NCBI GenBank assembly: GCA_028283025.1
Contig: JAPYNO010000010.1
Coordinates: 27,398-91,397, forward strand
Source: Pseudomonadales bacterium
Lineage (GTDB): Bacteria; Pseudomonadota; Gammaproteobacteria; Pseudomonadales; Azotimanducaceae
Length of the DNA stretch: 64,000 nt
Direction: 5' to 3'
The notes beneath the pieces were generated by a model. It had not been told where the DNA came from. It did no database searches and worked only from the letters and a program-made list of their open reading frames with translations. Position numbers and translations under genes: made by a program. Positions 46,614 to 64,000 of this stretch are shown piece after piece. Numbering within the stretch: the stretch's first letter is position 1; every line of letters begins with the position of its first letter.

Positions 46614-49600
46614 GTGCATCCGTTTCAGATCCGAAGTCTTAGACACTCGCTTGGCCTCACCCAGCAAGAATTCGCCGACCAACTCGGTGTTTCCTTCGTC
46701 ACCCTGAATCGCTGGGAAAATAGTAAATCCAAGCCTTCACCGCTAGCCATCAAGAAAATACGCGAAGTCTCCCAAGCAACCATTCCCAAAGAAATTGAAG
46801 ATTCGTCTAAGCCTCGTCTCGACTTCCTCGGTAACCCCAAGGCGTTCAAAGTTTACGTCGAAGGCGAACGGCTCACCTTCGGGCACCAGTTCAATCCGGC
46901 CTTCGCCACCGAAATCAGCAGAATCGACCCACTCCCGCATCAGCGTATCGCTGTCTACGAGCGCATGCTGCCACAAGAGCGATTGAGGTTTCTGCTTGCC
47001 GACGATGCCGGCGCGGGCAAGACAATCATGACTGGGCTGTATGTGCGCGAGCGCTTAAGCCGTCGAACCTTGCGCCGTGTCCTCATTGTCGTTCCCGCTG
47101 GCCTTGTCGGCAACTGGCATCGCGAACTGCGAAGCCTGTTCCAACTCAACTTCACAATTGTTCGGAACGCAGATGCTCGAAACGCAAATCCCTTTGTCGG
47201 CGAGGGGAGCGACTTGGCGTTGGTGAGTGTGGACAGCTTATGCGCAGAAAGGCTTTTCGCTTGCCTGAAAGATCCTAGGGTCGATCCCTACGACCTCGTC
47301 GTATTTGATGAGGCGCATAAACTCTCCGCAAGTCGCGACAGCGATGGAACGCTTCGCCGCACTAGGCGATACCGTTTAGCGGAGGCGATCGCGGGCGTTC
47401 GCCCGCTCTCCCTCGACTGGCAACTTCCCTGGTGCGCACACAATCTCGTGCTGCTCACAGCAACGCCGCACATGGGCAAAGACTTCCCGTATTACTGTCT
47501 TTGGCGGCTGCTAGAACCTGAAGCGCTCAGCACGCAATCGGCATTCACAGACATAAAGACAAGTTGGCGAGACGCGCACTTTATTCGCCGCGTTAAAGAG
47601 GAGATGGTTGACTTTGATGGCAAAGCACTGTTCCCGCAGCGTGTGTGCGACACGGTCCAATATGACTTGTCTCAAGGTGATGTCAGCGAGCAAGCGCTCT
47701 ACGACGAGACAACAGCCTATATCAGCAACTACTACAACCAAGCGAGACTCTTGAATCGTCAAGCGGCCAGGTTCGCGATGACAATTTTTCAACGCCGGCT
47801 TGCGAGCAGCACTTGGGCGCTGCTGCGTTCCCTACGCAACCGGATGCACAAACTTGAGCGACTCATCGACGACCTGAAATCAGGCAGAGTAGACGAAGCG
47901 AAACTGCGTCAGCAGCAGCAAAGGCTTGACGAACTTGAGGATGTGCTAGCAAGCAAGACCGCCGACGAAGAAGACGTGTCTGAGCAAGGCGAGGAAGAGC
48001 ACGAGAGCAGCGAGGCAGAAGCGCTCGGCGCTTTCGTTTCAACAAGCCTTGCCGAACTGGGCGATGAACGAGGCCAGATTGCTCGATTGACGCAGCTCGC
48101 CGAGGCTGTGTACGCGACTGGCGCTGAATCGAAGTTTGATCGAATGCGCGACCTCATTGATTCGAGTGGGCATCAAGAAGAAAAGATCATCATTTATACG
48201 GAGCACAAAGATACGCTCGATTTTCTCTTGCAGCGACTTGAAGGCATGGGCTATGCCGGACAAGTCGCCTGTCTTCACGGCGGCATGGACTTTCGCAAGC
48301 GCGACCTCGAAGTTGAACGCTTCCGCCGCTCGCACCAGGGTCGCAGCGATGGCGCACGCTTTTTCATCGGCACAGATGCTGCGGCCGAGGGCATCAATCT
48401 TCAATTCTGCGCGACACTCATCAACTATGACATCCCTTGGAATCCTGCTCGTCTCGAACAGCGCATGGGCCGTATTCACCGCTACGGACAACAGCGCGAC
48501 CGGGTACACATCGTCAATTTGGTGGCGGGCAATACGCGAGAAGGGAATGTCGTCAAGACGCTCCTTGACAAACTTGAGGAAATACGCAAACAACTCGGGA
48601 ACGACAAAGTATTCGATGTAATTGGACGAATCTTTAAGGGCATGGAACTCACCGAGTACATGCGACGGATTCTGGACTCAAACAGCAGTCAAGATGTTGA
48701 TGGCTCGGAAATGGAGTCGCTTGTGACTGCACAACGAGTGGCCGAACTAAAATCTCGCGAAGAGCATCTTTACGGCACTCCGGGAGAAGTCGGCGAGTCG
48801 TTGCCGCAGCTTCAATCTGAAATAGCAATGCAGAAGCTGCTTAGGCTCCTTCCGGGCTATCTCCGCCTCTACCTTGAAAACGCCGCACCGTTCATAGGCG
48901 TGGATTTGGTGGGAGACCTAGGCGGGCAGTTTCTATTGAGGCCAAGACAGAAAGGCGTGCTCGAACGCCTAGCGCCAGTGCTCGAAGCTCACCCGGAAAC
49001 CACAAGCGAACGATTCACATTATTTCCGAGCGCGAATCCGAGGGATGCAATCTTCCTCCATCCGGGCGAACCCATATTTGACGAACTACAGCGCATCGCC
49101 CGTGATGCCTGCCGCGCTTCCGCACTACAAGGGGCCATGTTCACCGACCAAGGTACAGATACGCCCTACTTGCTTTACTTCGCGCGCATTCACGTCGAAC
49201 GGGCGGGCTGTGACGATGCGCCCGAGTTACGCAAGTCCAGATGCATTGAGCAACGACTTGTCAGCGTCAGGCAGTTTGCTGACGGACACATGTCGATGCT
49301 GCCGGTGGAGCATCTCTTGACTTTGCAACCTGCGGGACGATTAAGTCCAGCCAGTCACTATCTGTTCTCGCAAGCACATGAGCTAGTAGGGCGGGCGGAG
49401 GCGCACCTTCGAACCTACGCATTGGATCAGATAGTCTCCAAACATCGCGATGCCGCCAATGAGCAATTGATTGAATCGACAAGTCGTGTACGCCGAGCGT
49501 TCGATCTGCAAGCATCGCAACTTGCGACCGAAAGAAAGCGAATCGCAGAAAAAGTCAAGCAGGGACACAGCGACGCCTCAAGCGAACTTGAACGTATCAA

Positions 49601-50165
49601 ACGAGACCAGAGAGCACTCTCGGAACGTCGAGAACTTGCCCTGCACACGGCAAGGCGCGCGACAGACCTGATCGACCTCGGCTCGGTAGACCTCATCGCG
49701 ACCGCACTTGTCCAGCCAGCCGAAGCCACAGACGAGACAAGGCCGCTTGACATCGAGTCCGAGCGTATCGCCGTTGAAATGGTGGTTGCCTTTGAGAGGG
49801 CGAGAGGCGCTGAGGTGTTTGACGTCTCCACCGCGGATAAAGCCCGCAAGGCAGGGCTCAATGACTATCCGGGCTTTGACCTTCTCTCAAAACATCCTGA
49901 AGGAGACTGCAGCATCGAAGTGAAGGGCCGGGCCGGACGAACTGACGTTGCGTTGGAAGAAAATGAATGGGCCACAGCCTGCAATTTGCAGGACGGTTAC
50001 TGGCTCTATTGCGTATTCGATTGCGGGACGGCCGCTCCCAAGCTGCTCAAGGTACAGAACCCTTTTCGCAAGTTGATCGCGAAGTCGCGAGGACGACTAG
50101 TTGTTGCATATGGTGAGGTTATTCGCGAAGCAGAAGAGGATGAGACCAATGACTCCGCCGAGTAG
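46614..50165 (+). CDS. XRE-fused SNF2/DEAD-like helicase with DUF3883 domain
   Basis: An 1183-residue protein of unusual domain order. Residues about 1-55 form an XRE helix-turn-helix (RHSLGLTQQEFADQLGVSFV). A superfamily 2 helicase follows: motif I LADDAGAGKTIMTGL, motif II VVFDEAHKLSA, motif III LLTATPH, then RFFIGTDAAAEGINLQF and motif VI QRMGRIHRYGQ. A coiled, acidic insertion (about residues 400-480) precedes the second helicase lobe. The C-terminus (about 1075-1165) is DUF3883-like with NDYPGFDLLS, CSIEVKGRAG and NPFRKL, a restriction-like fold often attached to defence helicases. GTG start at 46614. First gene of the helicase-methylase-ATPase cassette. Confidence 0.88.
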   Translation: MHPFQIRSLRHSLGLTQQEFADQLGVSFVTLNRWENSKSKPSPLAIKKIREVSQATIPKEIEDSSKPRLDFLGNPKAFKVYVEGERLTFGHQFNPAFATEISRIDPLPHQRIAVYERMLPQERLRFLLADDAGAGKTIMTGLYVRERLSRRTLRRVLIVVPAGLVGNWHRELRSLFQLNFTIVRNADARNANPFVGEGSDLALVSVDSLCAERLFACLKDPRVDPYDLVVFDEAHKLSASRDSDGTLRRTRRYRLAEAIAGVRPLSLDWQLPWCAHNLVLLTATPHMGKDFPYYCLWRLLEPEALSTQSAFTDIKTSWRDAHFIRRVKEEMVDFDGKALFPQRVCDTVQYDLSQGDVSEQALYDETTAYISNYYNQARLLNRQAARFAMTIFQRRLASSTWALLRSLRNRMHKLERLIDDLKSGRVDEAKLRQQQQRLDELEDVLASKTADEEDVSEQGEEEHESSEAEALGAFVSTSLAELGDERGQIARLTQLAEAVYATGAESKFDRMRDLIDSSGHQEEKIIIYTEHKDTLDFLLQRLEGMGYAGQVACLHGGMDFRKRDLEVERFRRSHQGRSDGARFFIGTDAAAEGINLQFCATLINYDIPWNPARLEQRMGRIHRYGQQRDRVHIVNLVAGNTREGNVVKTLLDKLEEIRKQLGNDKVFDVIGRIFKGMELTEYMRRILDSNSSQDVDGSEMESLVTAQRVAELKSREEHLYGTPGEVGESLPQLQSEIAMQKLLRLLPGYLRLYLENAAPFIGVDLVGDLGGQFLLRPRQKGVLERLAPVLEAHPETTSERFTLFPSANPRDAIFLHPGEPIFDELQRIARDACRASALQGAMFTDQGTDTPYLLYFARIHVERAGCDDAPELRKSRCIEQRLVSVRQFADGHMSMLPVEHLLTLQPAGRLSPASHYLFSQAHELVGRAEAHLRTYALDQIVSKHRDAANEQLIESTSRVRRAFDLQASQLATERKRIAEKVKQGHSDASSELERIKRDQRALSERRELALHTARRATDLIDLGSVDLIATALVQPAEATDETRPLDIESERIAVEMVVAFERARGAEVFDVSTADKARKAGLNDYPGFDLLSKHPEGDCSIEVKGRAGRTDVALEENEWATACNLQDGYWLYCVFDCGTAAPKLLKVQNPFRKLIAKSRGRLVVAYGEVIREAEEDETNDSAE

Positions 50166-50176
50166 CGCACAAAAAG

Positions 50177-50200
50177 AGACGCCCCCGACAGGGGGCGTCT
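50177..50200 (-). terminator. Strong hairpin after the helicase gene
   Basis: AGACGCCCCC at 50177-50186 pairs perfectly with 50191-50200 around the loop GACA. On the minus strand the stem is followed by TTTTT (complement of 50171-50175), which is an intrinsic terminator for transcription out of the transposon operon to its right. On the plus strand there is no T-run. Confidence 0.55.
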
Positions 50201-50356
50201 GGCCGGCAATACTATCACCGGGGGGGTTAACGAGCGCAATTATGGTAGGGAACAACACTCGCGTCAAGCAGTTTCTTTCAACTTGTTCGCTCGACCTTCT
50301 TGCCACAATCTTGAACCTGACAAGGTTGAGCTCGATGTCCGAGGATTCGTGAGAAA

Positions 50357-50521
50357 GTGAGCAGAGTCGTTACCTACATCGATGGCCTCAATCTGTACTA
50401 TGGTATTCGGTCGAAGAAGTGGCGGAAGTACTACTGGCTTGATTTGGTGACACTCTCCCAATCCCTCTTGAAACCTGAGCAGACCTTAGAAGCTGTGCAT
50501 TATTTGGGAATTAGGCACTAA
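50357..50521 (+). pseudogene. 5' fragment of a NYN-domain (LabA/DUF88) gene cut by IS1595
   Basis: From GTG at 50357 the frame reads MSRVVTYIDGLNLYYGIRSK, then KYYWLDLVTLSQSLL and EAVHYL. This is the typical start of NYN-domain ribonuclease-like proteins, with the first catalytic Asp in YIDGLN. The frame enters the left inverted repeat of the IS element at 50506 and ends at TAA 50519-50521. The matching 3' end survives at 53477-53545, but the central part of the gene is absent. Confidence 0.75.
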
Positions 50522-50529
50522 AATCAGCA
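50506..50529. repeat. Left terminal inverted repeat of the IS1595 element
   Basis: 24 bases that are the exact reverse complement of 53452-53475. It interrupts the NYN reading frame after its 50th codon. Confidence 0.95.
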
Positions 50530-50544
50530 GAACCATATAAGGTT

Positions 50545-50721
50545 CTAGTGGTCCCGCACTAGCTTGAACCGCTCATCAAGCGCCTGCTTCGCAGGCTCGC
50601 GGTTCTTAAACTTCACATCAGTCTTTGGCTTGAGCAGGATATTCAGCGCGTCCATGAAATCATCCTCCGTGACTGGTGCGCGCTCGGCCTTCTCAAACTC
50701 TTGGCGGTGCTTTGCGTTCAT
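50545..50721 (-). CDS. Small passenger gene of the IS1595 element (58 aa)
   Basis: From ATG at 50721 the minus strand encodes 58 residues, MNAKHRQEFEKAERAPVTED... to DERFKLVRDH, rich in charged residues and probably helical. GGAAG lies four to five bases upstream of the start, a good ribosome site. It follows the endonuclease gene by 14 bases on the same strand and ends 15 bases inside the left inverted repeat. This makes it the last gene of the transposase operon. A small regulator or control protein for the neighbouring R-M genes is possible. No family recognised. Confidence 0.6.
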   Translation of the reverse strand: MNAKHRQEFEKAERAPVTEDDFMDALNILLKPKTDVKFKNREPAKQALDERFKLVRDH

Positions 50722-50735
50722 TTTTCTTCCCTTCT

Positions 50736-51350
50736 TTAGTTCTGAAACTGCTCAATGAAAGCGACCGCATTCTTCAAGAAGTTCTTGCCGTTTTGAAAAC
50801 GGCCCAAGCCAGTGTTGCAACTATCACAGATGTAATCCCTTGCATCCCCCGTCAAGTGGTCGTGATCCAGAACCAGTTTGACGGTGACACCCACTATCCC
50901 TCTCTTCTCGCATATCGCACACTGCCAAAAAGCGCCTACTGGAGGCTTGGCAGGCTTTGACCCGTCCTTGCGAGTGGTGTAGTTCTTTACGCCATCAATG
51001 CCTCTCCTGCATTCAATGCAAGTCGGCCTCCTGATGGAAGAGCCATCCTTTCGCGTCTGATTCATCTCAAAGCGCTCGACATCCAGCAATCTGAAGCATT
51101 GATTGCAAACCTTTTCGATCTGATCTCTGGGAACATTGTCCGCCGCATAAATGCTCTTCCTCCGGGTGGAGCTCATCTGTATCGGATGGTCGTGCGGATT
51201 AAAAGGCTCGACATCTTCAATCCGCAACTTCAGCGGCCTTCCTCCCAACGGCAATTCAACTTCCACACCACGACCAGTTCTTTCCCTAACCATCGCCAAC
51301 CTCCCGTCAGCAATGATGACAACCCATTCAGGCACATCGCTATCGAACAT
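50736..51350 (-). CDS. Endonuclease VII-like HNH nuclease carried by the IS
   Basis: A 204-residue protein whose C-terminal third is a recombination-endonuclease-VII-type HNH/zinc module. CAICEK (about residue 144) and CDSC (about 179) bind zinc, and LVLDHDHLTGDARDYICD with CNTGLGRFQNG holds the catalytic His/Asp/Asn residues. Two further Cys pairs (CNQC near 84, CIEC near 111) form a second zinc region. The N-terminal 75 residues are a beta-type domain of unknown kind. The ATG overlaps the methylase stop (TAATG). Next to a methylase it is a plausible restriction enzyme. Confidence 0.8.
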   Translation of the reverse strand: MFDSDVPEWVVIIADGRLAMVRERTGRGVEVELPLGGRPLKLRIEDVEPFNPHDHPIQMSSTRRKSIYAADNVPRDQIEKVCNQCFRLLDVERFEMNQTRKDGSSIRRPTCIECRRGIDGVKNYTTRKDGSKPAKPPVGAFWQCAICEKRGIVGVTVKLVLDHDHLTGDARDYICDSCNTGLGRFQNGKNFLKNAVAFIEQFQN

Positions 51351-52156
51351 TACAAGACGGCCGAAAGCAGCGTGTCATCAGGAAGTCGCTGCCTGGCTAT
51401 CTCCACATACTCTTCGGACACATCCACGCCTATCCAACGCCTGCCATGCACTTTGGCCATCTTGCAGGTCGTCCCGCTCCCGCACATCGGATCAAGCACC
51501 AGATCACCAGCCTCAGTCCACGACAGAATATGATCCTCCGCAAGCTTCTCCGGGAACACTGCGGGATGCTGGAATGCCACACGGTCACTGGTGCTTCCAC
51601 CTAGTCCAACCGCATACTGCCATATGTTCGTTCTCACCTTTTCCTTCTTCAGCTCGACAGGGCGTTTTCGGTTGACCGCATCCGGCCCCTTGTTTGACAC
51701 GGATCGCTCCCATCCGTGCCGGACTGTAGGCACTTTCAAGGCATTGAATGTCTTGGGCTTCCCTTTCGTGAACACAAACATGAACTCATAGCAGTTCGTG
51801 TACGCATTCGCCCGCATGAAAGGCGTGTTTTTCTTCTGGTAGATCATGACGTCATGCACGACAAAGCCTGCATTTCTCGCGTGATACGCATGGTCGAAAC
51901 TTACAAGGCTGCGACCTCCGTTGATCTTGTCGCCCACAACCCACACGCAAACCCCGCCCTCTTTCGTCACCCGATATATCGCCTGAATCATTTTCGCCGC
52001 ATCAAACGAATATCCGTTGTAATCCCTGAGATTCTCATAAGGAGGGCTTGTGACAGTCAAATCAACACAGTCATCACACCACGAATCCAGGACCGAGACC
52101 GCATCCCCCACATGGAACCTACAAGCATCCGGCATTCCTTTTTTGTTGATGCTCAC
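51350..52156 (-). CDS. DNA methyltransferase (TSPPY, N4-cytosine type) carried by the IS
   Basis: A 268-residue beta-class DNA methylase. The catalytic motif LTVTSPPYENLRDYNGY lies near residue 34 and the SAM-binding loop LDPMCGSGTTCKMA near residue 225, followed by RWIGVDVSEEYVEIA. TSPPY before the SAM loop is the order of beta-class N4-cytosine (sometimes N6-adenine) methylases. The start overlaps the transposase stop (ATGA) and the stop overlaps the HNH gene start, so expression follows transposase expression. Together with the HNH protein it probably forms a mobile type II-like R-M unit. Confidence 0.88.
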   Translation of the reverse strand: MSINKKGMPDACRFHVGDAVSVLDSWCDDCVDLTVTSPPYENLRDYNGYSFDAAKMIQAIYRVTKEGGVCVWVVGDKINGGRSLVSFDHAYHARNAGFVVHDVMIYQKKNTPFMRANAYTNCYEFMFVFTKGKPKTFNALKVPTVRHGWERSVSNKGPDAVNRKRPVELKKEKVRTNIWQYAVGLGGSTSDRVAFQHPAVFPEKLAEDHILSWTEAGDLVLDPMCGSGTTCKMAKVHGRRWIGVDVSEEYVEIARQRLPDDTLLSAVL

Positions 52157-53133
52157 ATTGACACCACTTCATTCGACAATCCGTTGTCGGCAGTGAGTTC
52201 CTCAAGTGAGATTCTGCGGTCGGCAATGCGCCGAACCAGCGCCGCCATGCGGTCGATGGTGTCCACTTCGCAGTTCCCCTCGCTCAGCCTGAACGCGGCC
52301 TCGTTGACGTAGCGGGCAAGGTGCTTCGGCGAGACGTGATGCCAAGTGCCGTTGATCGAGCGCTTGAGAACCGCCCAGACGCTCTCTATGCCGTTGGTGT
52401 GGCACATGCCGTTCACATACTCTTGAAGCGAATGCTTCACGCTGCCGTGCGTGTAGAGCACGTCGCCTAGCCCCTCGTATGCGCCGTGATCGTCGGTGTA
52501 GACGGTCGAGCCTGCTTCCACATGCTCGGCGATAGCGCCTTGAAGCGTTTGCTTGTCGGTCGATTCGACCGGCATCGCCTTGACATTCCCACCGCGCTCG
52601 CGAATCCCGAACACGGCGGCCTTGCCGACCGCGCCGCGACCAGTCCCGGCCAACGCCTTGCGCTTCGCGTTGCTCATGTTCCTGCGCTTCCCCCCAATGT
52701 AGGTTTCGTCAACCTCGACAACTGTTCGGAGCTTGAAGTCTTCGTCCACGCACGCCTCCCTGACGCGATGCAGCATATACCATGCTGTCCGGTAATGGCA
52801 ATCAAGCTCCTTGCTTAGCTGCATGGCGCTCACTCCCTTCCGGGCGGTCAGAACGGAATAGATCGTGTACAGCCAGTCTTGTAGCGGACGGCGGCGAGAG
52901 TGCATGACTGTGCCTGTCGTGGCGGTGAAGTGTTTCCTGCATGACCTGCACCAATAATGGTGAGCCTTGCTCTTCGGCGGATTGCCGATCTTCTCGACCT
53001 CGCCGCAGTGCGGGCAGACCGGCTGGCCGTTCCAGCGCACAGCCTCAAGCCATTGCCAGCATGATTCCTCGGTTGGGAACATGCGGTAAAGCTGAGTGAC
53101 TCCGAAGGTTTCAGCGATTCTTTTCTTGGACAT
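52153..53133 (-). CDS. IS1595-family transposase
   Basis: A 326-residue DDE transposase. The N-terminal zinc ribbon has CPHCGE (about residue 40) and CRSCRKHF. The catalytic core (IS1595/ISXO2-like) has VVEVDETYIGGKRR (first Asp), STVYTDDHGAYEGL (second Asp) and MCHTNGIESVWAVLKR (Asn/Glu region typical of this family). GAGG about eight bases upstream supports ATG at 53133. The frame is open to 53190. It appears full length and intact. Its stop overlaps the methylase start, placing cargo translation under its control. Confidence 0.93.
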   Translation of the reverse strand: MSKKRIAETFGVTQLYRMFPTEESCWQWLEAVRWNGQPVCPHCGEVEKIGNPPKSKAHHYWCRSCRKHFTATTGTVMHSRRRPLQDWLYTIYSVLTARKGVSAMQLSKELDCHYRTAWYMLHRVREACVDEDFKLRTVVEVDETYIGGKRRNMSNAKRKALAGTGRGAVGKAAVFGIRERGGNVKAMPVESTDKQTLQGAIAEHVEAGSTVYTDDHGAYEGLGDVLYTHGSVKHSLQEYVNGMCHTNGIESVWAVLKRSINGTWHHVSPKHLARYVNEAAFRLSEGNCEVDTIDRMAALVRRIADRRISLEELTADNGLSNEVVSM

Positions 53134-53243
53134 CCGCGCATCCTCGTGAATATTGCTGATTATTATATGTTCAATGATTTCAAATAGCAAACGAATGGGG
53201 TAGAATGTGGAAAATCCTGAATCAGCCCGCGAGGAGGCTCTTG

Positions 53244-53444
53244 ATGAACAACTACAGGATCAGATACAAACCCGGCGTTGGGCAAGGTCTGAGGCAAGTC
53301 AGGGCGGATAGCGTGAACGGCTTTCAACCAAGTTGCGACACCTATGTATTCCGCCTCGAAAATGAGATTGTCGCGGCCATCCCCAAGGTCAATGTCGCGT
53401 CAATCGAGCGGGTGAAAGCAACCGATGACGATGAGATCGCCTAG
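53244..53444 (+). CDS. Small protein at the right end of the IS1595 element
   Basis: A 66-residue protein (MNNYRIRYKPGVGQGLRQVR...) with alternating strands (YVFRLENEIVAAIPKVNVASI). A strong ribosome site (GAGGAGG) lies seven bases before ATG 53244. It is the only passenger gene on the plus strand and is divergent from the transposase, 111 bases away. I recognise no family. Its small beta-type fold and divergent placement suggest a regulator, but this is inference. Confidence 0.6.
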   Translation: MNNYRIRYKPGVGQGLRQVRADSVNGFQPSCDTYVFRLENEIVAAIPKVNVASIERVKATDDDEIA

Positions 53445-53451
53445 CCAACCT

Positions 53452-53475
53452 TGCTGATTTTAGTGCCTAATTCCC
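53452..53475. repeat. Right terminal inverted repeat of the IS1595 element
   Basis: Exact reverse complement of 50506-50529. The 3' piece of the NYN gene begins directly after it. Confidence 0.95.
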
Positions 53476-53476
53476 G

Positions 53477-53545
53477 TCACAATTGCCAGCAACAGTGACT
53501 AGCGAGAGTGGGCACTTGTTGGAAAGGCCGAAAGAGTGGCACTAA
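53477..53545 (+). pseudogene. 3' fragment of the NYN-domain gene
   Basis: Directly after the IS right end, 22 codons read SQLPATVTSESGHLLERPKE... and end WH-stop at 53543-53545. The pattern SQLP-x-V-x(n)-G-x(n)-RP-x-W is the usual C-terminus of NYN/DUF88 proteins, so this is the far end of the gene beginning at 50357. Roughly 130-150 residues in between are missing. Confidence 0.65.
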
Positions 53546-53639
53546 GCCGCACATCGTGGTGAGTTCAGGAGGTTGACGTGAGTGTTCCTAAACATCTGTT
53601 GGAAACTTATCCCAATCAACGGACGTACTCACATAACTC

Positions 53640-54494
53640 TTGCGTCATCGCGGCCCTAGGAACAGGAACGATAAGTTGACTTTCGAATACGGCAAGCCGG
53701 TACACGGGATGGCCTTAGGCGATCAACGCCTTTTTCCGAGTGACGACTCCGCTTGGGGCGAATCTTGGCAGCCACGGGAACCCGATGCAACTGCCACGCT
53801 GTGGCGCTACATGAGCTTCGCCAAGTTCTGCTCGCTTTTCGAGCGTCAGCAACTCTTCTTCGCCCTAGTAAGCGACATGGCAGATAAGTTTGAAGGGTTC
53901 ATCTCTCCTCCGACATCGCACGAGCTAGGAGATATTGTTGAGCGAGCAGAGCATATCGGGTCGATAATATTACGCGAGACAACGCAAAACGCCTTGATAA
54001 ATTGCTGGACGGAGGCTGACCACGAATCCAGTCTCATGTGGACTTCCTACGCGAACGCAGAAGGGGTGGCCATAAGAACAACCTTCCAAGATTTGCAGAC
54101 ATCATTGCTCTCAATCGCCCCAACGCTACCCGTCAGATTCGGAAAGGTTGCGTATGTCGATCACCGCCTGAAGGAGTCGCCACGCTTCAGTCACGCACCG
54201 CTATTCCATAAGCGGGTGGAATACCGAGGTGAGGAAGAGGTACGCGCTACCCTACCGAGCCCGCCTTGGGAAGTTCGCCCAGACTTGGAAAACCCGAATG
54301 AGACGAACATTCTCATAACGCTCGACTCGGATGTCGAGAAGCAACGCGGACGCTACATCTCGGTAGATCTCAACGCATTGATCAAAGAGGTTGTCTTGCA
54401 TCCGCATAGTGAGGCATGGTTCGGCAAGTTGGTGCAATCGGTCGTAGACCGGTCGCCGATCAACTCACATGTAGCACCTTCAAGCCTTAGATGA
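53640..54494 (+). CDS. DUF2971-like protein
   Basis: A protein of up to 284 residues. From about residue 53 it follows the DUF2971 pattern: LWRYMSFAKFCSLFERQQLFF, DKFEG, INCWTEADHESSLMWTSYA and GVAIRTTF. VRFGKVAYVDH and FHKRVEYRGEEEVR follow. Function of the family is unknown, but it recurs in defence islands. The start is doubtful: 53640 is TTG without a ribosome site, and ATG 53709 is the next option. A strong AGGAGG at 53567-53572 precedes a GTG at 53580 in another frame that stops after 33 codons, possibly the true start separated by a frameshift. Six bases before the DUF1156 gene. Confidence 0.72.
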   Translation: MRHRGPRNRNDKLTFEYGKPVHGMALGDQRLFPSDDSAWGESWQPREPDATATLWRYMSFAKFCSLFERQQLFFALVSDMADKFEGFISPPTSHELGDIVERAEHIGSIILRETTQNALINCWTEADHESSLMWTSYANAEGVAIRTTFQDLQTSLLSIAPTLPVRFGKVAYVDHRLKESPRFSHAPLFHKRVEYRGEEEVRATLPSPPWEVRPDLENPNETNILITLDSDVEKQRGRYISVDLNALIKEVVLHPHSEAWFGKLVQSVVDRSPINSHVAPSSLR

Positions 54495-54500
54495 GCGGGG

Positions 54501-57500
54501 ATGGCATTGAACGACAAACGCCTCATCGAAGTCGCCTTTCCTCTGCGGCAGGCATCGATTGATTCGGTGCATGAGAAGAATGTCCGGCACGGGCATATCT
54601 CGACACTGCATATCTGGCCAGCGCGTCGGCCTTTAGCGGCATGCCGGGCGGCGTTGATCGCAACGCTCTTGCCTGATCCGGGCAACAAGGCGAAGCGTGA
54701 CGAGATTCTCAAACGTCTTGGCGGAACGCTGACCAAGACCCGCAAGAAAAAGAAGCTGCCGGGCGGTGGCGTGAAGGAGACGGAAGCTTGGGAGACTCAA
54801 GGCGGCATCTTGCATTGGGGGCGTGAGTCCGGCCCGGACCTCGATTGGTTTCGGGAGGAGATTAAGAAAGCATACGGCGGCCGCGCACCGAAGGTGCTCG
54901 ACCCATTCGCAGGAGGCGGCGCTATCCCGCTCGAAGCCATGCGTCTCGGCTGCGATGTGACGGCTGCCGACATTAACCCGGTCGCCTGGTTCATTCTCAA
55001 ATGCACGCTTGAATACCCGCAAAAGCTCACTGGGCAGAAGAAGAAGCTGCCAGAGTTCGCGCTTGAAGATGACGAGTTCATGGCCGCCTATCTGAAGGCG
55101 CAGGGTGTGAAGAAGACGCGCGCCAAACGTGGTCAGACAGCGGACCTTTGGGAGGCGCCAAAAATTGACTCAGCGTTATTACAAGCCGACCTGTCGTGGC
55201 ATTTGCGCACATGGACGCGATGGGTGCTCAAAGCAGCGCGCAAAGAACTTGCGAAGTTCTATCCGACCTATGCCGAGTTCTGTTCGCTTAAACCCTATCA
55301 GACGATGTCCGTTGATTCGGGAGATGAATTGAAGCTGGTGCCAGTCAGCGACGATGGCGAGCCGCAGATTGATCTCTTGAATGCAGGGTTTGATGAGGGG
55401 TATTTGAAGAATCCGGCGAACCCCCGATGGGTTGCGAAACCGACCGTTGCGTATCTCTGGGCCCGCACGGTGTCGTGTAAAGCTTGCCGGGCGGAACTAC
55501 CATTGCTAAAAACACGTTGGCTTGCCAAGAAGGAAAACAAGCGGGTGCTGCTAGGAATGCATCCGCGTGAAGACAAGTTGGGCGTTGAGTTTGATATTGA
55601 AACCGACGTTCCACCCGTTGGTGGTAACGTGGCGCAGCGGCGCGAGCATGACAAGCGTATCGGCGCGGGGACGATGAGCCGTGCTGGAGCTACCTGCCCA
55701 TGCTGCGGCACGACTATGACGATGGCGGATCTGCGGATGGAAGGGCGGGCTGGTAGGCTCGGCGCGACAATCACGTCGGTCGTTGCGGAGAGTCCTCAAG
55801 GTAAGGAATACCGTGCGCCGACCGTGACCGAGACGGAGATGGCGCTCGCGGCGCAAAATGAACTTGGGAGCGCGTTTCAAAACCTGCCGTTTGGAATGCT
55901 AAACGAGCCACTGCCGAGTGCTGATACTCTTGGGTTCCGCGTCCCGCGCTACGGATTCGACCAATGGCACACGCTGTACGCGCCGCGCCAACTACTCGCG
56001 CTCGGCGTGCTCGCCAAGACAGTTCGCAAACTGAGAGAGGAACTCGGCGCATATGGATATTCTGATGAATGGCAGCAAGCACTCGTTGCCTACAACGCGC
56101 TGCTATCGGACAAGATAGCGGATTACGGCTCATCCATCTGTAGCTGGCACAATTCCGTTGAGGCAATCAGAAATACTTTTGGCCGCTTCGCGCTGCCGAT
56201 GATATGGGACTTTGCAGAACTTGCTGTGGTAAACGACGTAGGTGGCACATGGACAGCGCAATCGGATTGGTTATGCCGCTATGTCACTCATGCGCTCGCC
56301 GCGGCCGAGAAAGGCTCGGCAAAGGCAAGCAAACGTTCTGTGCTTGAAGATGCAAGCGAACAGGTGGATGTGATTGTCACCGACCCGCCCTATTACGATG
56401 CCATTCCCTACTCCGACCTCATGGATTTCTTCCATGTCTGGCTTCGCAGGGTGCTGCACGGATTTTCAGCAGAGTTCGACTCAGCCTTCGCCAACCCAGT
56501 GTCTCCGAAGTGGGACAAGGCAGCAGATGATGGCGAACTCATTGACGACGCATCCCGTTTTGAAGGCGACAAACAGGTCTCCAAGCAGAACTACGAAAGC
56601 GGCATGGCGCGAGCGTTCACGAAATGCCACGAGGCACTCAAAGACGACGGGCGTCTTGTGATCGTCTTTGCCCACAAGCAGGCGGATGCGTGGGAAACGT
56701 TGGTCAGCGCGATCATCAAAGCGGGCTTCGTTGTCGATGCAAGCTGGCCCATACAGACCGAAATGGGCACTCGAATGCGCGCCTTTTCGTCAGCGGCCCT
56801 CTCCTCTTCCGTCTGGCTCGTCTGCCGCAAGCGCGATCCACGCACGCGAGCCGGATGGGACACGCAAGTGCTCAAGGATATGCAATCGAACATCACTGAA
56901 AAACTGCGCGATTTCTGGGATGCGGGCATTCGCGGACCGGACTTTGTCTGGGCAGCGACAGGCCCGGCGCTCGAAGCCTACAGTCGCTACCCCGCCGTCA
57001 AGAAAGCTTCTGAATCTGGCGCACTCATGGGTGTCGAAGAATTCCTACGCCAAGTGCGCCGCATCGTCGTCGATTTTGTCGTCGGACGTGTACTCAGCCG
57101 CGATGCAGCGAACGGCCATTCAGAAGATAATCTGCTCGACGACATTACCACCTACTACCTCTTGCATCGCAGCGACTTTCTATTGGGCGACGCACCGTCC
57201 GGCCCCTGCATCCTGTACATGCTCTCATGCGGCGTGGCGGAACGCGAACTCACCGATGCGCAAGGCATACTCGCCAAAGGTAGAACATCCGACTCAAGCA
57301 ACGAAGAAGATGACTCTAGCGACGAAGAATCAACAGATTCAGGCAGCAAACTCAAGCTCAAGCCTTGGACGAGGCGCAGCCATAAAAGTATCGGTGAAGA
57401 CATGGCTGATGGACGCGCGCCGCCGCTCATCGATCAACTGCATCGCGTCATGCACCTATGGAAAGCCGGCGATGCCGTCAAGGTCGATGCTTATCTTGAT

Positions 57501-57665
57501 CGCCGTGGTCTCAAGCGCAACCAACTTTTCGGCCAGCTTGTGCAAGCGCTCATCGAGCAGAGTAGAGAAGAAGGGCAAAATGACGAGTGTGCGATGATCG
57601 AGCGCATCGCCAATCATTTGAAGCTGCCCATTGGCACCGGGCAGCGGGAGATCGTTCTCGAATAG
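54501..57665 (+). CDS. DUF1156 giant DNA methyltransferase
   Basis: A 1054-residue protein. The N-terminus has the DUF1156 hallmark IEVAFPLRQASIDSVHEKNV followed by HIWPARRPLAACRA. The SAM-binding loop VLDPFAGGGAIPLEAMRLG lies near residue 132, with AADINPVA after it. A zinc-ribbon region follows (CKACRAELPLL near 327 and CPCCGTTM near 400). The catalytic motif VIVTDPPYYDAIPYSDL lies near 625, then DGRLVIVFAHKQADAWETL. DPPY indicates an adenine (or N4-cytosine) methylase. The family pairs with DUF499 ATPases and large helicases in candidate antiphage cassettes, as here. It looks intact and precedes the ATPase by 21 bases. Confidence 0.92.
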   Translation: MALNDKRLIEVAFPLRQASIDSVHEKNVRHGHISTLHIWPARRPLAACRAALIATLLPDPGNKAKRDEILKRLGGTLTKTRKKKKLPGGGVKETEAWETQGGILHWGRESGPDLDWFREEIKKAYGGRAPKVLDPFAGGGAIPLEAMRLGCDVTAADINPVAWFILKCTLEYPQKLTGQKKKLPEFALEDDEFMAAYLKAQGVKKTRAKRGQTADLWEAPKIDSALLQADLSWHLRTWTRWVLKAARKELAKFYPTYAEFCSLKPYQTMSVDSGDELKLVPVSDDGEPQIDLLNAGFDEGYLKNPANPRWVAKPTVAYLWARTVSCKACRAELPLLKTRWLAKKENKRVLLGMHPREDKLGVEFDIETDVPPVGGNVAQRREHDKRIGAGTMSRAGATCPCCGTTMTMADLRMEGRAGRLGATITSVVAESPQGKEYRAPTVTETEMALAAQNELGSAFQNLPFGMLNEPLPSADTLGFRVPRYGFDQWHTLYAPRQLLALGVLAKTVRKLREELGAYGYSDEWQQALVAYNALLSDKIADYGSSICSWHNSVEAIRNTFGRFALPMIWDFAELAVVNDVGGTWTAQSDWLCRYVTHALAAAEKGSAKASKRSVLEDASEQVDVIVTDPPYYDAIPYSDLMDFFHVWLRRVLHGFSAEFDSAFANPVSPKWDKAADDGELIDDASRFEGDKQVSKQNYESGMARAFTKCHEALKDDGRLVIVFAHKQADAWETLVSAIIKAGFVVDASWPIQTEMGTRMRAFSSAALSSSVWLVCRKRDPRTRAGWDTQVLKDMQSNITEKLRDFWDAGIRGPDFVWAATGPALEAYSRYPAVKKASESGALMGVEEFLRQVRRIVVDFVVGRVLSRDAANGHSEDNLLDDITTYYLLHRSDFLLGDAPSGPCILYMLSCGVAERELTDAQGILAKGRTSDSSNEEDDSSDEESTDSGSKLKLKPWTRRSHKSIGEDMADGRAPPLIDQLHRVMHLWKAGDAVKVDAYLDRRGLKRNQLFGQLVQALIEQSREEGQNDECAMIERIANHLKLPIGTGQREIVLE

Positions 57666-57686
57666 GACTCACGGAGAAAGTAGCCG

Positions 57687-60600
57687 ATGGCAAAGAATAT
57701 CGCCAAACCTTGGCATGAAGTAGTCCGCGTTCGAGCGGATATTCGCAGCGAAGAACTGTCGCTCAAAGCGTTCGCGGCGGACCTCTACGATGTCATGCTC
57801 GACCGCAATGTCGGTGTTTACCACGACCCGCAAGCGTTTTTCTCGCTGACTTATCCAACGCTGCGATTGCGCGAGCTTGCGCGTGATGTCACTCGTCGGC
57901 TCGCTGGCAAGTCCGACAAGGCCGTCAGACAACTGCATGTGACCTTCGGCGGCGGCAAGACGCACGCATTGATCGCGCTGGTGCAGCTCGTCAGAGATCC
58001 TGCCGCCCTGCCGGATGTGCCTGCCGTTCAAGAGTTCCGAACACACTGCGACTTGGGTGAGGAATTTCCGAAGGCGCGTGTTGCCGCGGTCGTTTTTGAC
58101 CGACTCGATGCCGAGCAAGGCATGGAAGTCAAATCTCCAGACGGCGCTACCGCCAAGCTCAAAATGCCTTGGAGCCTCATTGCTTGGCAACTCGCTGGCA
58201 AGAAAGGTTTGAAACTGCTGAAAGACGATGGTTCCGAGCGTGAAAGCCCGCCCGCCACCAATGTCATGGAGCAGCTTCTGGAACTCGCGAGAGAAGAGGC
58301 GCCGTCGGTCTTGATTCTGTTCGATGAAGTGCTCTGGTTCGTGCGCACCATGGCCGACCAGGACCCCGCTTGGATTCGGCGCATGGCCGACTTCTTGATG
58401 GCGTCAGCAGGTCATGGCTGCACTCAATAGGAGTGCGCCGCTTGATGACTACACCAGCAAGAACCGACCGCAAGAGGAAGATCGCTACCTGAAAGCCTTT
58501 CCGTTCCATCCTGACTTGGTGGACCTGTTTTACTCAAAATGGACACAGCTTGAGGGGTTTCAGCAAACTCGCGGCATTCTCAAAACGCTCGCAACGGCGA
58601 TACGCGATGCCGAATCTTGGGACACGCAGCCCTTGATCAGCGCACAGGCATTTCTGTCGTCACCTGAAGCGAGTGGGTTCAGCGCGGCGGCACGCGAGCT
58701 CGCGAGCACGGCGCAGGTCGAGCAGTACGAAGGAAAAAGCCAGAACTGGTCGGCGATTCTTGAATCTGAACTGGCGCACGCTCGCAAGGCAACGGAAGGG
58801 TTCGGCAGCCTGAAAGCACGGGAAGTCGAACAAGCGGTGATTGCCACCTTCCTGCACTCGCAACCGATCGGGCAGCGCGCGACAGCACGAGAGTTGAAGC
58901 TGCTCGCAAGCGGCGGTGCACCGGATGCGATCGAGCTCGGTAAAGGACTTGCGCATTGGGCGGACGCATCTTGGTATCTCGACGACACCTTCATTGATGA
59001 CCGAGAGGAAGGATTGCCAAAGCTCTGGCGACTTGGCTGCAAGCCAAATTTGAAGCAAATGCACCACGATGCACGCGCGCAAGTCGCTGATTCGCAAGTC
59101 GATGAAGTCATCGAAGAGCAGGTTCGCAAGTCGAAAAAGCTCATCGAAGGCGTGCGAGGCGCTGGTGCCAAGCTGCATATGCTGCCCACGCACCCCTCGG
59201 ACATTGAAGACGATGGCGCATTTCATTTTGCCGTGCTCGGCATCAAATCGGCCTCTGAAAGCGGCAGGCCGAGCGCCTTTGCCGCACGCTTTCTGAATGA
59301 GACTACCGGCACGGACAAGCCTCGGGCGCGCAACCGAAACGCGGTGGTATTGGCAGCGCCATCAAGAGAAGGCGTCGAAGTCGCCCGAGAAAAGGTGCGC
59401 GATCTTCTGGGATGGGAGAGAGTTCGCGAACTACTGGAGAAGCGAGATGATGTGGACGCTCATTCAAGGGCGCGGCTCGAAGGTAACGTGCGCACAGCGA
59501 CGAACGACATGGCGTCGCAAGTGCTCCTGGCGTGGTGCATATGCGTGACCTTGATGGAAGACAACAAGGTCGCTGCGTTTCGAGTCGGTGCTGACAATTC
59601 GCCCTTGTTTGCAAGGCTGTGCGCCGATCAACGCACGAGAATTGAGAGTGTGGCGGTGAATGCCGAGGCGCTGTTGCCGGGCGGACCCTATGACCTATGG
59701 GGCGAGTCAGACGAGGCGCGCTACGTCAAGGACTTGGTAGGCGCGTTCGCAGCCACTGCGCGACTGCCGAAGATGCTCAATCAACAAGCAATATTGGACA
59801 CGCTGCTACAGGGCTGTGAGTCAGGCGATTTCGTTCTGCGCGTGACGCGCAGCGACAAATCCTCTCGAACATTCTGGCGAAACCGCCCGGACGATACCGC
59901 GCTTGCCGAACCGAGCCTTGAAGTCGTGCTGCCCGACAAAACTAAACTCACCGAGCTCGAACCGCGCTTGCTTGCGCCCGGCGCCTTGCCAGAGCTTTGG
60001 CCAGAGCTTTGTAAAGAGACGTCGCTCGATATGAGTACACTGTCCGCTTACTTCTCAGGTGAGCATCTCGTTTCCATCGAAAAAGGCAGCTACACTGAAC
60101 CTCAGATTGTGCCAGCGTTGAACGAGCATGCGCTCAAGGAGTCCGTCACGCAAGCTGTCGCAAGCGGACACATCTGGCTAGTGAACGGCACGATCAGTGT
60201 CTTCGGTGAAGAGCCGCCCGCGGGATTTGTTAATGATCAGGCGGCTCTCTACCCGCCGCCAGAGCCGCTCAATGCGGCTGATCTCCTGCCTGAGAAAATC
60301 GAAAGCGCGTGGTCCGATGAAGGAACATCCGCCGCTCTCATTCAAGCCGCATTGTCGTCAAAAGACGGACGACCCTTACCTTGGCCGCTAGTTCGAGATG
60401 CGCTCGATAATGGGTTTCGATTGGGTCTCTTCGAACGTACCCCAGACTCCGCACTTTGGCCATGCGATGCCGGAGGCGCGAGCGCCATCAAGATTCAAGT
60501 CGGCGCTGCGAAGCCCGGAGATGCGACCGACGCCACCAAAGCCACATCCAAACTCGAATCGCACGAGATACAAGACCTGGCCGACGAGATCGACGGCCTC

Positions 60601-60738
60601 CTAGAGGTCGCAGCCGGTCACACGCTGAGGTTTGAAGTCACCATTCACGTTGGAGACGAAGAGGCGGTTGATGCGATGACCAAAGGTCGAATGAACGAGG
60701 TTTTGGGGAAGATCAAGTCTGGATGGCGGGTGAATTGA
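57687..60738 (+). pseudogene. DUF499 ATPase, internally deleted and frameshifted
   Basis: The first frame (57687-58430, 247 codons) has the DUF499 N-terminus: WHEVVRVRADIRSEELSL, Walker A VTFGGGKTHALIALVQL and Walker B VLILFDEVLWFVRTM. It ends shortly after MADFLMASAG. The second frame (58414-60738, 774 codons) takes up at RYLKAFPFHPDLVDLFYSKW, which in intact family members lies well over 100 residues after the Walker B segment, and continues to the normal C-terminus (GDEEAVDAMTKG...). So about 100-150 codons are missing and the frame is shifted by one at about 58410-58430. The SD-ATG overlap (58414 inside the first frame) could still allow two separate polypeptides. Confidence 0.8.
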
Positions 60739-60766
60739 CTCGGCGCAGCGTCGCCGACCAAGCGCA

Positions 60767-61612
60767 CTACACTTGCCCGCGAAACGCGGGATGCCTACGC
60801 TCGGAATCCCTCATCTTGCACGGCAAATGCTCGCGCACATGGTCAATGATGTCGTTCTTCCGTACATCGTTGTGCCACTGCTGAATAATGGTTCTCCCGA
60901 TACCTTGAAGCCCGGTTTGCTGTTCGGACATGACTTTCAGGCTGCCGTTCAGCGATTCCAGCACTTCCATGTCCGAAGCGTCCTCGGCATGAGGCCAGAA
61001 AGCACCGAGGACGACCCTATACAAGAAGTCCAAATCCCCCCGATTCACATACGTTTCTTCAAGGAACGCATCTTGGACAAAGAGCACATAGGGGTTGTCG
61101 ATCTCCAAGCGATGTGCGTTCTCAAGCGCCCATTGATGAATCACCCCATGACGCATGTTCTCATCGCTGGTAATGAGGATTTTCGTGTTTGTGGCGAACG
61201 CCTCGGCGACAAGCGCCGCGTCACCATGCTCAAGAAGAGACTGCGTGGGGTCAGCTTTAGGAAACGCAAAACGGTCGAGGTTCTCGCAGATCATTTCGAC
61301 CTTTGCTTGCTCGTCGCCCGTGAGAAGGCGCACTCGGTAGAGGTCGGCACTGACGAACTCTTGCGCCCACCACAAAATGGATTCTCCCCACAGCGTTCTT
61401 TTGCGGTTCAATGTGTTTGATAGAGCGCCTAGCTCTTCCCGCACACTCTTCATGCCAAGCTCAAGAGCGTAAGGATTGATTCGATGCCCCATCAGCTCGT
61501 GAGCGCATTGCGGCAGCAGCCAGACAGGCTCCCGGTCGGTTTCCCGCCAAGTGGCGTTGAAGCGGCGCTGCAACACATTGCCAAGTCGATTGGTATCAAA
61601 AGTGAGCATCAC
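60767..61612 (-). CDS. PIN-like domain protein
   Basis: A 281-residue protein. MMLTFDTNRLGNVLQRR puts an Asp at the first PIN position. HGDAALVAEAFATNTKILITSDENM resembles the second half of the PIN active site (Asp, then ITSDE), quoted here in part as DAALVAEAFATNTK. The rest is longer than in VapC toxins, with a C-terminal helical region ending in basic residues. It lies two bases downstream of a 90-residue gene on the same strand and is convergent with the ATPase gene. A nuclease toxin of a toxin-antitoxin-like pair is my reading. Confidence 0.6.
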   Translation of the reverse strand: MMLTFDTNRLGNVLQRRFNATWRETDREPVWLLPQCAHELMGHRINPYALELGMKSVREELGALSNTLNRKRTLWGESILWWAQEFVSADLYRVRLLTGDEQAKVEMICENLDRFAFPKADPTQSLLEHGDAALVAEAFATNTKILITSDENMRHGVIHQWALENAHRLEIDNPYVLFVQDAFLEETYVNRGDLDFLYRVVLGAFWPHAEDASDMEVLESLNGSLKVMSEQQTGLQGIGRTIIQQWHNDVRKNDIIDHVREHLPCKMRDSERRHPAFRGQV

Positions 61613-61614
61613 TC

Positions 61615-61887
61615 TTAATCGACCAAGCCCTTGTCGCGCATAGATTGCAATTGCGCTTTGGTCTCGCTGCGAATTCGCTCATCGTCCACCGGTGCGCGAA
61701 TGAGCGTGCTGTCAAACGAGATTGGAGGCTTCGGCAATCCCAAGTATTCGCGAAGTTCCATTGATGCTTTGCGCTTTTGCTCAGAGAGTTCCTCAATCCT
61801 TCTGCAGAGGCGTTCCGAGGTCCATCGCTTGTGTGCGTCAGGGTCGTAGATATTCGCTGCGCGTTCCTTTTTCACGTCATCCTTCAC
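61615..61887 (-). CDS. Small helical protein, possible antitoxin partner
   Basis: A 90-residue, very charged protein: KRWTSERLCRRIEELSEQKR and KASMELREYLGLPKPP suggest two helices, followed by a more extended tail. It is encoded two bases before the PIN-like gene. The order small-then-large and tight spacing match antitoxin-toxin operons. No DNA-binding motif can be assigned by eye. Confidence 0.55.
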   Translation of the reverse strand: MKDDVKKERAANIYDPDAHKRWTSERLCRRIEELSEQKRKASMELREYLGLPKPPISFDSTLIRAPVDDERIRSETKAQLQSMRDKGLVD

Positions 61888-61952
61888 GTCATCGCTCTCT
61901 TAAAGCATCGAGAGAAGATGCATTGTATAGGCTCAAGGTGCCCCATCCACCA

Positions 61953-63521: not shown

Positions 63522-63567
63522 AACGAAAATTGATTAGCGATGTTGGCAGCAAGAAAGCGATAGAACA

Positions 63568-63643
63568 TGGTGCCGGAAGGCGGAATCGAACCGCCGGCCT
63601 ACTGATTACGAATCAGTCGCTCTACCGACTGAGCTATTCCGGC
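63568..63643 (-). tRNA. tRNA-Thr(CGT)
   Basis: 76 bases on the minus strand with acceptor GCCGGAA/TTCCGGC, D arm AGTCGGTAGAGC, anticodon stem ACTGA/TCAGT around TTCGTAA (anticodon CGT, reads ACG), T loop TTCGATT and an encoded CCA. The discriminator is A. Confidence 0.96.
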
Positions 63644-63669
63644 ACGGACAGGCGCGAGATAGCGTTCGC

Positions 63670-64000
63670 TCACGTCCTGTAGTCGGCGTTTATTGTGACA
63701 TATTCATGCGAAAAATCACTCGTCAGCATCTCGCTGATTGCCGAGCCTCTCCCAAGCGAAACGCGCACATCATACTTGTGCGATTGCATCACATGACGCG
63801 CTGCTGCTTCATCGTAAGCTTCGCTCACCACGCCTGCGGCCATGACCGGCACGTCCCCGATTGAAATGTCCACTAGCGATTGATCGAAGTCTTCGAGTGC
63901 GGCGTTGCCGATCGCCATGCAGATGCGCCCCCAATTCGGATCTTGCGCAAAGAATGCGGTCTTGACGAGCGGTGATTCGGCGATGCTTCTTGCGACACGC
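63670..64000 (-). CDS. argJ: Bifunctional ornithine acetyltransferase/N-acetylglutamate synthase, 3' part
   Basis: Only the C-terminal 109 codons lie in the window. They read through SPLVKTAFFAQDPNWGRI, CMAIGNAALEDFDQSLVDI and end LTSDFSHEYVTINADYRT, the conserved ArgJ C-terminus (DPNWGRI and the YV-INA-Y-T end). ArgJ recycles the acetyl group in arginine synthesis. The autocleavage Thr lies upstream outside the window. The gene continues past 64000. Confidence 0.93.
   Translation of the reverse strand, partial: RVARSIAESPLVKTAFFAQDPNWGRICMAIGNAALEDFDQSLVDISIGDVPVMAAGVVSEAYDEAAARHVMQSHKYDVRVSLGRGSAISEMLTSDFSHEYVTINADYRT

Follow-up and report, generated by a model that had tools for sequence, protein, structure and literature searches.

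A predicted mobile restriction-modification cassette between the ends of an IS1595-family transposon

The 64-kb stretch of contig JAPYNO010000010.1 analyzed here (assembly GCA_028283025.1, a Pseudomonadales bacterium; "the window" in the following) contains, at positions 50506-53475, an element whose inverted ends enclose a transposase, a DNA methyltransferase and an Hpy99I-like nuclease. With a probability of roughly 0.75, we read it as an IS1595-family transposon and a predicted mobile restriction-modification (R-M) cassette, which likely makes cells depend on keeping it. The transposase, the methyltransferase, the nuclease and a gene for 58 amino acids (aa) follow each other in this order on the minus strand, and a 66-aa open reading frame (ORF) is divergent:

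50506..50529, plus strand: terminal inverted repeat at the tail-gene end, 24 nt, pairing with the opposite end at 24/24 positions
50545..50721, minus strand: 58-aa tail gene, with tblastn relatives in loci L111 and L113
50736..51350, minus strand: Hpy99I-like beta-beta-alpha-Me restriction endonuclease (PF02945, E = 8.7e-15; PF18275, E = 1.9e-10)
51350..52156, minus strand: DNA methyltransferase (TSPPY, N6_N4_Mtase; PF01555, E = 2.4e-42)
52153..53133, minus strand: IS1595-family DDE transposase, apparently intact, 326 aa (NF033547, E = 6.1e-58; PF12762, E = 3.9e-42)
53162..53190, minus strand: promoter-like site TTGCTA-17-TATAAT just upstream of the transposase ATG, 10/12 consensus positions
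53244..53444, plus strand: divergent 66-aa ORF, whose 79-aa frame matches no Pfam, PADLOC or NCBIfam model
53452..53475, minus strand: terminal inverted repeat at the transposase end, reading GGGAATTAGGCACTAAAATCAGCA inwards, 24 nt, 100% complementary to the opposite end

The transposase, whose most probable start is the ATG at 53133 inside a longer frame open to a TTG at 53190, has the DDE_Tnp_IS1595 domain and the N-terminal zinc ribbon (PF12760, E = 2.1e-6) of the IS1595 family, and its residues D142, D214 and E250 are invariant in an alignment with four relatives (5 sequences). The two arms of the terminal inverted repeat, which is also of the IS1595 type, are separated by 2922 nt; such repeats measure 14 bp in ISApl4 (PMC12561309) and 25 bp in MTnSag1 (PMC5704250, PMC3129680; all literature is cited here from excerpts of the papers). 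At the transposase end the repeat begins GGGAATTA, as do the ends of many relatives. Ends of the GGGAATTAT type are common to many of the related elements surveyed below, and those of its phylum-wide sample start with GGG and mostly diverge further in. The methylase and the nuclease are genes unrelated to transposition that lie inside the ends, as in the established IS1595 elements with passenger genes (tIS; PMC3129680, PMC5704250). An earlier note on this DNA had proposed perfect 24-bp terminal repeats, an apparently intact IS1595-type transposase, five ORFs within the element and a precedent for passenger genes in this family, and all of these claims were borne out. Its description of overlapping gene junctions was half right: the nuclease ATG start overlaps the methylase stop (TAATG) as described, whereas the transposase/methylase junction is not ATGA but GTGA, with the GTG start of the methylase overlapping the TGA stop of the transposase. 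Promoter-like sites, called by consensus match alone, numbered 5 in the region versus a mean of 1.6 in shuffles.

The methylase and nuclease matches support the assignment of an R-M pair, predicted from sequence. For the methylase, which had been recognized earlier as a TSPPY enzyme, the top PADLOC models were orphan methyltransferase (E = 8.6e-75) and Type II methyltransferase (E = 6.3e-57). The nuclease had been described as an endonuclease VII-like HNH enzyme; its PF02945 match agrees with this, yet the more specific match is to Hpy99I (PDB 3fc3), with which residues 78-203 align at E = 4.6e-37, and no other solved structure matched below E = 0.03. It also matches the PADLOC model REase_II PDLC03494 (E = 9.5e-39). 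In the predicted structure (mean predicted local distance difference test score 81, predicted template modeling score 0.66), the only fold matches below E = 0.001 were two Hpy99I chains (E = 3.8e-12, template modeling score 0.50, root-mean-square deviation 15 over the whole alignment). The nuclease residues D162, H163 and N179 and eight Cys were invariant in an alignment of 12 Hpy99I-type sequences; among distant copies, the nuclease in locus L050 lacks one of the eight Cys and that in L051 has His at the Asn place. The roles of the Asp, His and Asn and the site CGWCG are known from Hpy99I (PMC4081073), and catalytic and zinc residues of this fold are also assigned in PMC6083498. The window pair thus has the D-H-N active site, the two Cys4 zinc sites and the adjacent DNA methyltransferase of a Type II R-M system of the Hpy99I kind. 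The N-terminal third of the nuclease is unlike Hpy99I. By analogy with Hpy99I, its cleavage site may resemble CGWCG, which occurs twice in the element (52461 and 52491), both times within the transposase gene, and 170 times in the 64-kb window; we rejected avoidance of CGWCG as proof of specificity, since these counts are too weak.

That the nuclease is instead a homing or Holliday-junction-type enzyme aiding insertion or resolution would fit its PF02945 match, as resolvases and homing enzymes also have the endonuclease VII fold (PMC6083498). We give this explanation very little credence: the closest solved relative is Hpy99I, the nuclease stands beside a methylase in 3/3 of the IS1595 loci that contain it (window, L005, L049), and the unrelated restriction folds ThaI, NgoFVII and BglII follow a methylase in other elements.

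A recent phage or plasmid origin of the nuclease was also considered and rejected based on sequence searches. The 38 matching phage records were all of distant endonuclease VII and fell short of 80% query coverage, IMG/VR held 22 loci with nuclease relatives at 26-47% identity, and the plasmids searched yielded none.

The methylase-nuclease pair recurs in two other IS1595 elements, L005 and L049, which have different ends. A word scan of a collection of 84,980 species, each represented by a single genome (records of the own genome may be left out), found one relative, L005. Here, inverted repeats of 19 nt, which are 95% complementary and differ in sequence from the window ends, enclose a 164-aa IS1595-type transposase remnant, the methylase and the nuclease. 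While the transposase is broken, the two R-M genes still have open frames. Among 109 genomes of the order of L005, six had a match to the nuclease profile, two of them full-length (L005 and L049), and the context was viewed for all but G474. In L049, which lacks its left end at the start of the contig, the transposase looks intact; besides it there are a Panacea gene, two additional small genes, the methylase, the nuclease (in ATGA overlap with the methylase) and a DUF2806 gene. The methylases of the window, L005 and L049 are mutually 69-81% identical and the nucleases 64-81%; identity to the window is 72% (L005) and 69% (L049) for the methylase and 67% and 64%, respectively, for the nuclease. 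For the L005/L049 nuclease pair, the ratio of nonsynonymous to synonymous substitutions (dN/dS) was ~0.06 at a dS of 1.95, which is near saturation; the other pairs were saturated. Matches to the nuclease among 195 relatives of the window genome were three, the window and the partial ones L052 and L053, and among 398 genomes of the phylum the window was the only one. In a large protein search, at least 44 proteins, including the window's own, aligned over at least 91% of the nuclease query at 46% identity or more among the 120 of 488 matches listed. These 120 also included two in-frame methylase-nuclease fusions (P0046, P0089), which reveal this gene order in two more contigs.

We surveyed the cargo of related transposases in 38 distinct copies, chosen by transposase similarity and thus covering IS1595 relatives only. 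The first sample comprised 25 copies from 12 of the 109 genomes of the L005 order (E up to 1e-80 to the L049 transposase), the second seven copies from 7/195 genomes (E up to 1e-80 to the window transposase), and the third, phylum-wide sample seven copies from 7/398 genomes (E up to 1e-60), with the window in both the second and the third. Sampling was not random, as R-M genes in the window and L049 were known beforehand and the order was chosen for holding L005. A methyltransferase was counted if it lay within the element or, where the ends were unresolved, among the next genes; L095 and L101, whose contigs end soon after the transposase, were counted as misses, and genes beneath longer antisense ORFs may escape the count. 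On these terms, a DNA methyltransferase lay downstream of the transposase in 22/38 copies (20/36 without the window and L049), namely in 16/25, 5/7 and 1/6 others of the phylum-wide sample. A recognized nuclease gene or domain was present in 18 of the 22 (counting L099, L103, HSDR_N, T5orf172 and the IIG model). The nuclease types were Hpy99I, ThaI, NgoFVII, BglII, HaeIII, Type III, IIG, HSDR_N, fused HNH and T5orf172, and the methylases spanned four Pfam families (N6_N4_Mtase, N6_Mtase, DNA_methylase and MethyltransfD12). Exact 8-bp duplications flanked 18/38 copies (12 plus six in the phylum sample), nine of which enclose a methyltransferase; the two ends could not both be resolved in 6/22 methyltransferase copies (L092, L098, L099, L103, L111, L113). 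The cargo was distributed as follows:

Window, L049: methylase and Hpy99I-like nuclease
L089, L109: methylase with T5orf172 domain
L090: methylase with BglII (E = 5.2e-35)
L091: methylase with PADLOC REase_II (E = 3.1e-83)
L092: methylase with ThaI (E = 2.7e-29)
L093, L094, L096, L097: methylase-HNH fusions
L098, L110, L114, L116: methylase, no recognized nuclease
L099: truncated methylase, then a second transposase and a D12 methylase with HaeIII (E = 4.9e-71)
L103: Type III methylase; Type III nuclease (E = 4.4e-71) ~1.9 kb beyond it, on the opposite strand
L106: C5 methylase with NgoFVII (E = 1.4e-35)
L108: methylase with PADLOC REase_II (E = 1.1e-83)
L111, L113: HSDR_N with N6_Mtase, in L113 also with a specificity domain
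L123: IIG model (E = 4.5e-98), then a specificity subunit
L087, L102, L104, L127: no methyltransferase; Panacea, DUF4760, only a small gene, and a second transposase, respectively
L107: no methyltransferase; REase_II match (E = 4.9e-15)
L125, L126: no methyltransferase; P63C with DUF3800
L088, L095, L100, L101, L105, L112, L115, L124, L128: no methyltransferase

A start-stop overlap at the junction of transposase and cargo occurs with unrelated methylases in eight loci (window, L091, L092, L094, L098, L099, L110, L111), in some of them depending on a GTG or TTG start. A hidden Markov model (HMM) for N6_N4 methylases matched 14/28 bounded elements (L005, L049 and the window included) in 55 kb of cargo space versus two loci in ~160 kb outside, 11 of the proteins found being seeds of the model. 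One outside locus lies beside a tail-gene-like ORF in L094 and the other ~220 bp past the end of L109, and both may be parts of further elements; the outside stretch includes window positions 54501-64000, where the HmaB methylase fell short of the cut used (E = 0.0044).

The four methylase copies with no recognized nuclease (L098, L110, L114, L116) could point to a methylase that mainly regulates transposition by marking ends or promoter, with restriction secondary or lost, and Dam methylation is reported to control several IS elements (PMC9296519). For the window element this is improbable in our view. Its nuclease looks intact, and a CGWCG specificity, if correct, would give the element just two sites, both within the transposase gene and neither in the ends or promoter.

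The small genes bear on how the element is organized. Relatives of the 58-aa gene were found by tblastn directly behind different R-M genes in L111 (45% identity, E = 2.4e-8) and L113 (42%, E = 2e-5). The transposases of these two loci share 60% and 55% identity, respectively, with that of the window; the far element ends of both loci were not found. The matches indicate that the tail gene goes with the transposase while the cargo is exchanged. A small gene with an ATPEQVAKAI-like motif was present in 20 of 39 loci (the 38 copies and L005), nine of them HMM seeds and 11 found by the HMM (E = 1.6e-8 to 0.08), which also gave one extra match outside an element, next to a methylase fragment; the pattern was written after viewing the sequences and the seeds were chosen by eye, so neither is an independent test. 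For the 66-aa ORF, no relative was detected among the fetched loci (best E = 0.11). The 24-nt ends of L088 and L094 are identical save for one base at one end, and their cargo differs. Judged from these comparisons, the transposase, the ends and the small gene look like a core and the R-M genes like exchanged cargo. Inheritance of all element genes as one unit was rejected, since the 58-aa gene follows the transposase and no counterpart of the 66-aa ORF turned up in the fetched loci. The earlier note had suggested that methylase, nuclease and both small genes travel together, which holds for the methylase and nuclease (L005, L049) and fails for the small genes. The search with the exact 24-nt ends that it proposed covered the own genome, where it revealed no second full copy; among the relatives, elements whose ends are similar contain different R-M genes.

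Two side observations concern the cargo of related elements. L125 (3806-5441) and L126 (3870-5481) are flanked by exact 8-bp repeats and contain P63C-domain and DUF3800 genes, and the start of their P63C proteins resembles the motif of the small tail genes. In L049 (1020-1848) and L087 (4925-5437), Panacea-domain genes are followed by genes for small, membrane-bound-looking proteins, possibly a toxin-antitoxin-like pair.

Several observations weigh against a mobile R-M cassette. No target duplication was found at the window copy (flanking 8-mers CATTATTT versus GTCACAAT), so that the 8-bp direct repeat of a simple, unrearranged insertion is missing, and a neighboring gene is cut on one side only:

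50357..50505, plus strand: host flank with the first ~50 codons of a HEC-09-like gene, cut by the element end (PDLC04163, E = 3.2e-21, residues 1-51 of 203)

The other flank leaves 164 nt to the next gene, which is too short for the remainder of the HEC-09-like gene. Together, the missing duplication and the one-sided cut indicate a rearranged site, and present mobility is something we infer. The own genome holds only one full copy. Other points concern the relatives: the share of methyltransferase copies in the phylum-wide sample (1/6) and the 16/38 copies without one show that R-M cargo is not universal; the methylase is opposite in strand to the transposase in 4/22 copies (L093, L097, L114, L116), so coupling is not general; a large protein search with the 58-aa gene matched only itself, and the tail-gene HMM of the other elements does not match it; and Hpy99I-like pairs occur with no transposase in the fetched stretch in L050, L052 and L053 and are thus not confined to IS1595. 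In L050 (5887-7387), an Hpy99I-type nuclease and a TSPPY methylase lie between genes that by eye are of the nuo type, and the pairs of L052, where the nuclease frame appears split, and L053 adjoin other host genes. The missing 8-bp repeat marks a rearranged site and does not define family membership. Its cause is likely a deletion or recombination beside the element, by analogy with ISApl4, an IS1595-family insertion sequence (IS) in which the copies lacking duplications sat at rearrangements (PMC12561309).

The R-M genes might also be an accidental, neutral passenger, picked up by an IS1595 element that takes any gene, R-M genes being common and mobile anyway. Non-R-M cargo in related elements (Panacea in L087 and, beside R-M, in L049; P63C with DUF3800 in L125 and L126), cargo genes with no Pfam match in L088, L112, L115 and L128, the Hpy99I-like pairs among host genes in L050 and L052 and the choice of the survey order would fit such a passenger. 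We nevertheless regard it as unlikely, given methyltransferases of four Pfam families in 22/38 copies, the concentration of N6_N4 matches inside bounded elements (although 11 seeds are included) and the open methylase and nuclease of L005, whose transposase is broken.

We rejected L050-L053 as clear element remnants, as no inverted ends with 8-bp repeats were found within 900 nt on either side. L051 (5777-6439) holds a diverged Hpy99I-like nuclease among what by eye are ATP synthase genes, with no methylase seen next door. In L052 (4704-6022), the methylase shares 69-77% identity with those of the three IS1595 elements. The frame-split nuclease of this locus reaches no more than 21-27% in its N-terminal part (135-142 positions), a pattern that an exchange of the nuclease could have produced.

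Known systems resemble the window element in part. MTnSag1/tISSag10 and the lincomycin-resistance element tISCpe8, both mobilizable, share with it an IS1595 DDE transposase, inverted ends (theirs 25-bp) and passenger genes between the ends, and have 8-bp direct repeats (PMC5704250, PMC3129680). What sets the window element apart is the content of its slot, a methylase-nuclease pair in overlap with the transposase gene; in its relatives, R-M genes of other types take this place. The Hpy99I system has the same nuclease fold and active site, aligned over residues 78-203, and 12/13 of its Helicobacter relatives stand beside a methylase (PMC6083498); the window nuclease differs in its N-terminal third and in being carried inside a transposon. 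In the case of the PaeR7I R-M system (PMC3031569), R-M and IS move together under nuclease-based selection, as proposed here, but IS1 or IS5 became linked to the system during an experiment in the laboratory, whereas the window R-M genes lie inside a single transposon unit. Toxin-antitoxin pairs of the Tn3 family (PMC7157771) are likewise addiction-type modules exchanged at one transposon position, the difference being that the window has R-M rather than toxin-antitoxin genes and IS1595 rather than Tn3. Earlier reports of R-M genes in insertion sequences or transposons exist (PMC4176335, with PMC3031569 among the two works it cites), so that their presence on transposons is no novelty in itself. 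The excerpts searched, all from outside subscription papers and ISfinder, contained no account of an IS1595 slot for R-M genes.

The gene arrangement suggests how such a cassette could work. One promoter upstream of the transposase would drive all four genes, and reinitiation at GTGA and TAATG would couple their translation, so that the methylase is made before the nuclease. In a new cell, the methylase would first protect the host sites; the nuclease would then cut unmodified DNA, be it of phage, of competing elements or, in daughter cells that no longer have the element, of the chromosome. Mobilization of the cassette would fall to the transposase, perhaps assisted by the tail protein. The benefit to the element would consist in the killing of cells that lose it and in defense against phage and competing DNA. 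The open R-M genes of L005 and the nuclease dN/dS near 0.06 support, and do not prove, such a benefit.

The surroundings provided two further observations. The element sits in a defense-type locus (window 46614-60738) with an HmaA-like helicase, the HEC-09 fragment, a PDC-S31-like gene and an HmaB-like methylase; PADLOC matches these neighbors to the Hma defense system (HmaA 46614-50165, HmaB 54501-57665). Beyond HmaB, the overlapping ORFs 57687-58430 and 58414-60738 may be one split third gene. Elsewhere in the own genome, L003 (1501-1524, contig C6) and L004 (1501-1524, contig C55) contain lookalikes of the element end with three mismatches, which are possibly solo ends or short non-autonomous copies; the shared sequence after both resembles the left end of L113.

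Taken together, the window element is best read as a modular IS1595 transposon predicted to move interchangeable R-M systems. As relatives carry other R-M genes at the same place, such elements are predicted to spread R-M systems, and they likely gain persistence from this cargo. A more tentative and rather doubtful extension is that IS1595 transposons form a general class of self-mobile R-M carriers. These would have a core of ends, transposase and tail protein and an exchangeable slot, often coupled translationally to the transposase and occupied for the most part by R-M systems of whatever type. Post-segregational killing would keep such carriers stable in the genome, and the tail protein would be a hitherto unnoticed factor in transposition or cargo exchange. 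The movement of R-M systems between genomes is a long-standing question, for which a transposon family with an R-M slot would be a direct vehicle, and such a slot could account for R-M genes that lie at a distance from larger mobile elements. The element offers a compact test of whether restriction stabilizes a transposon, and its tail gene is a concrete, testable candidate.

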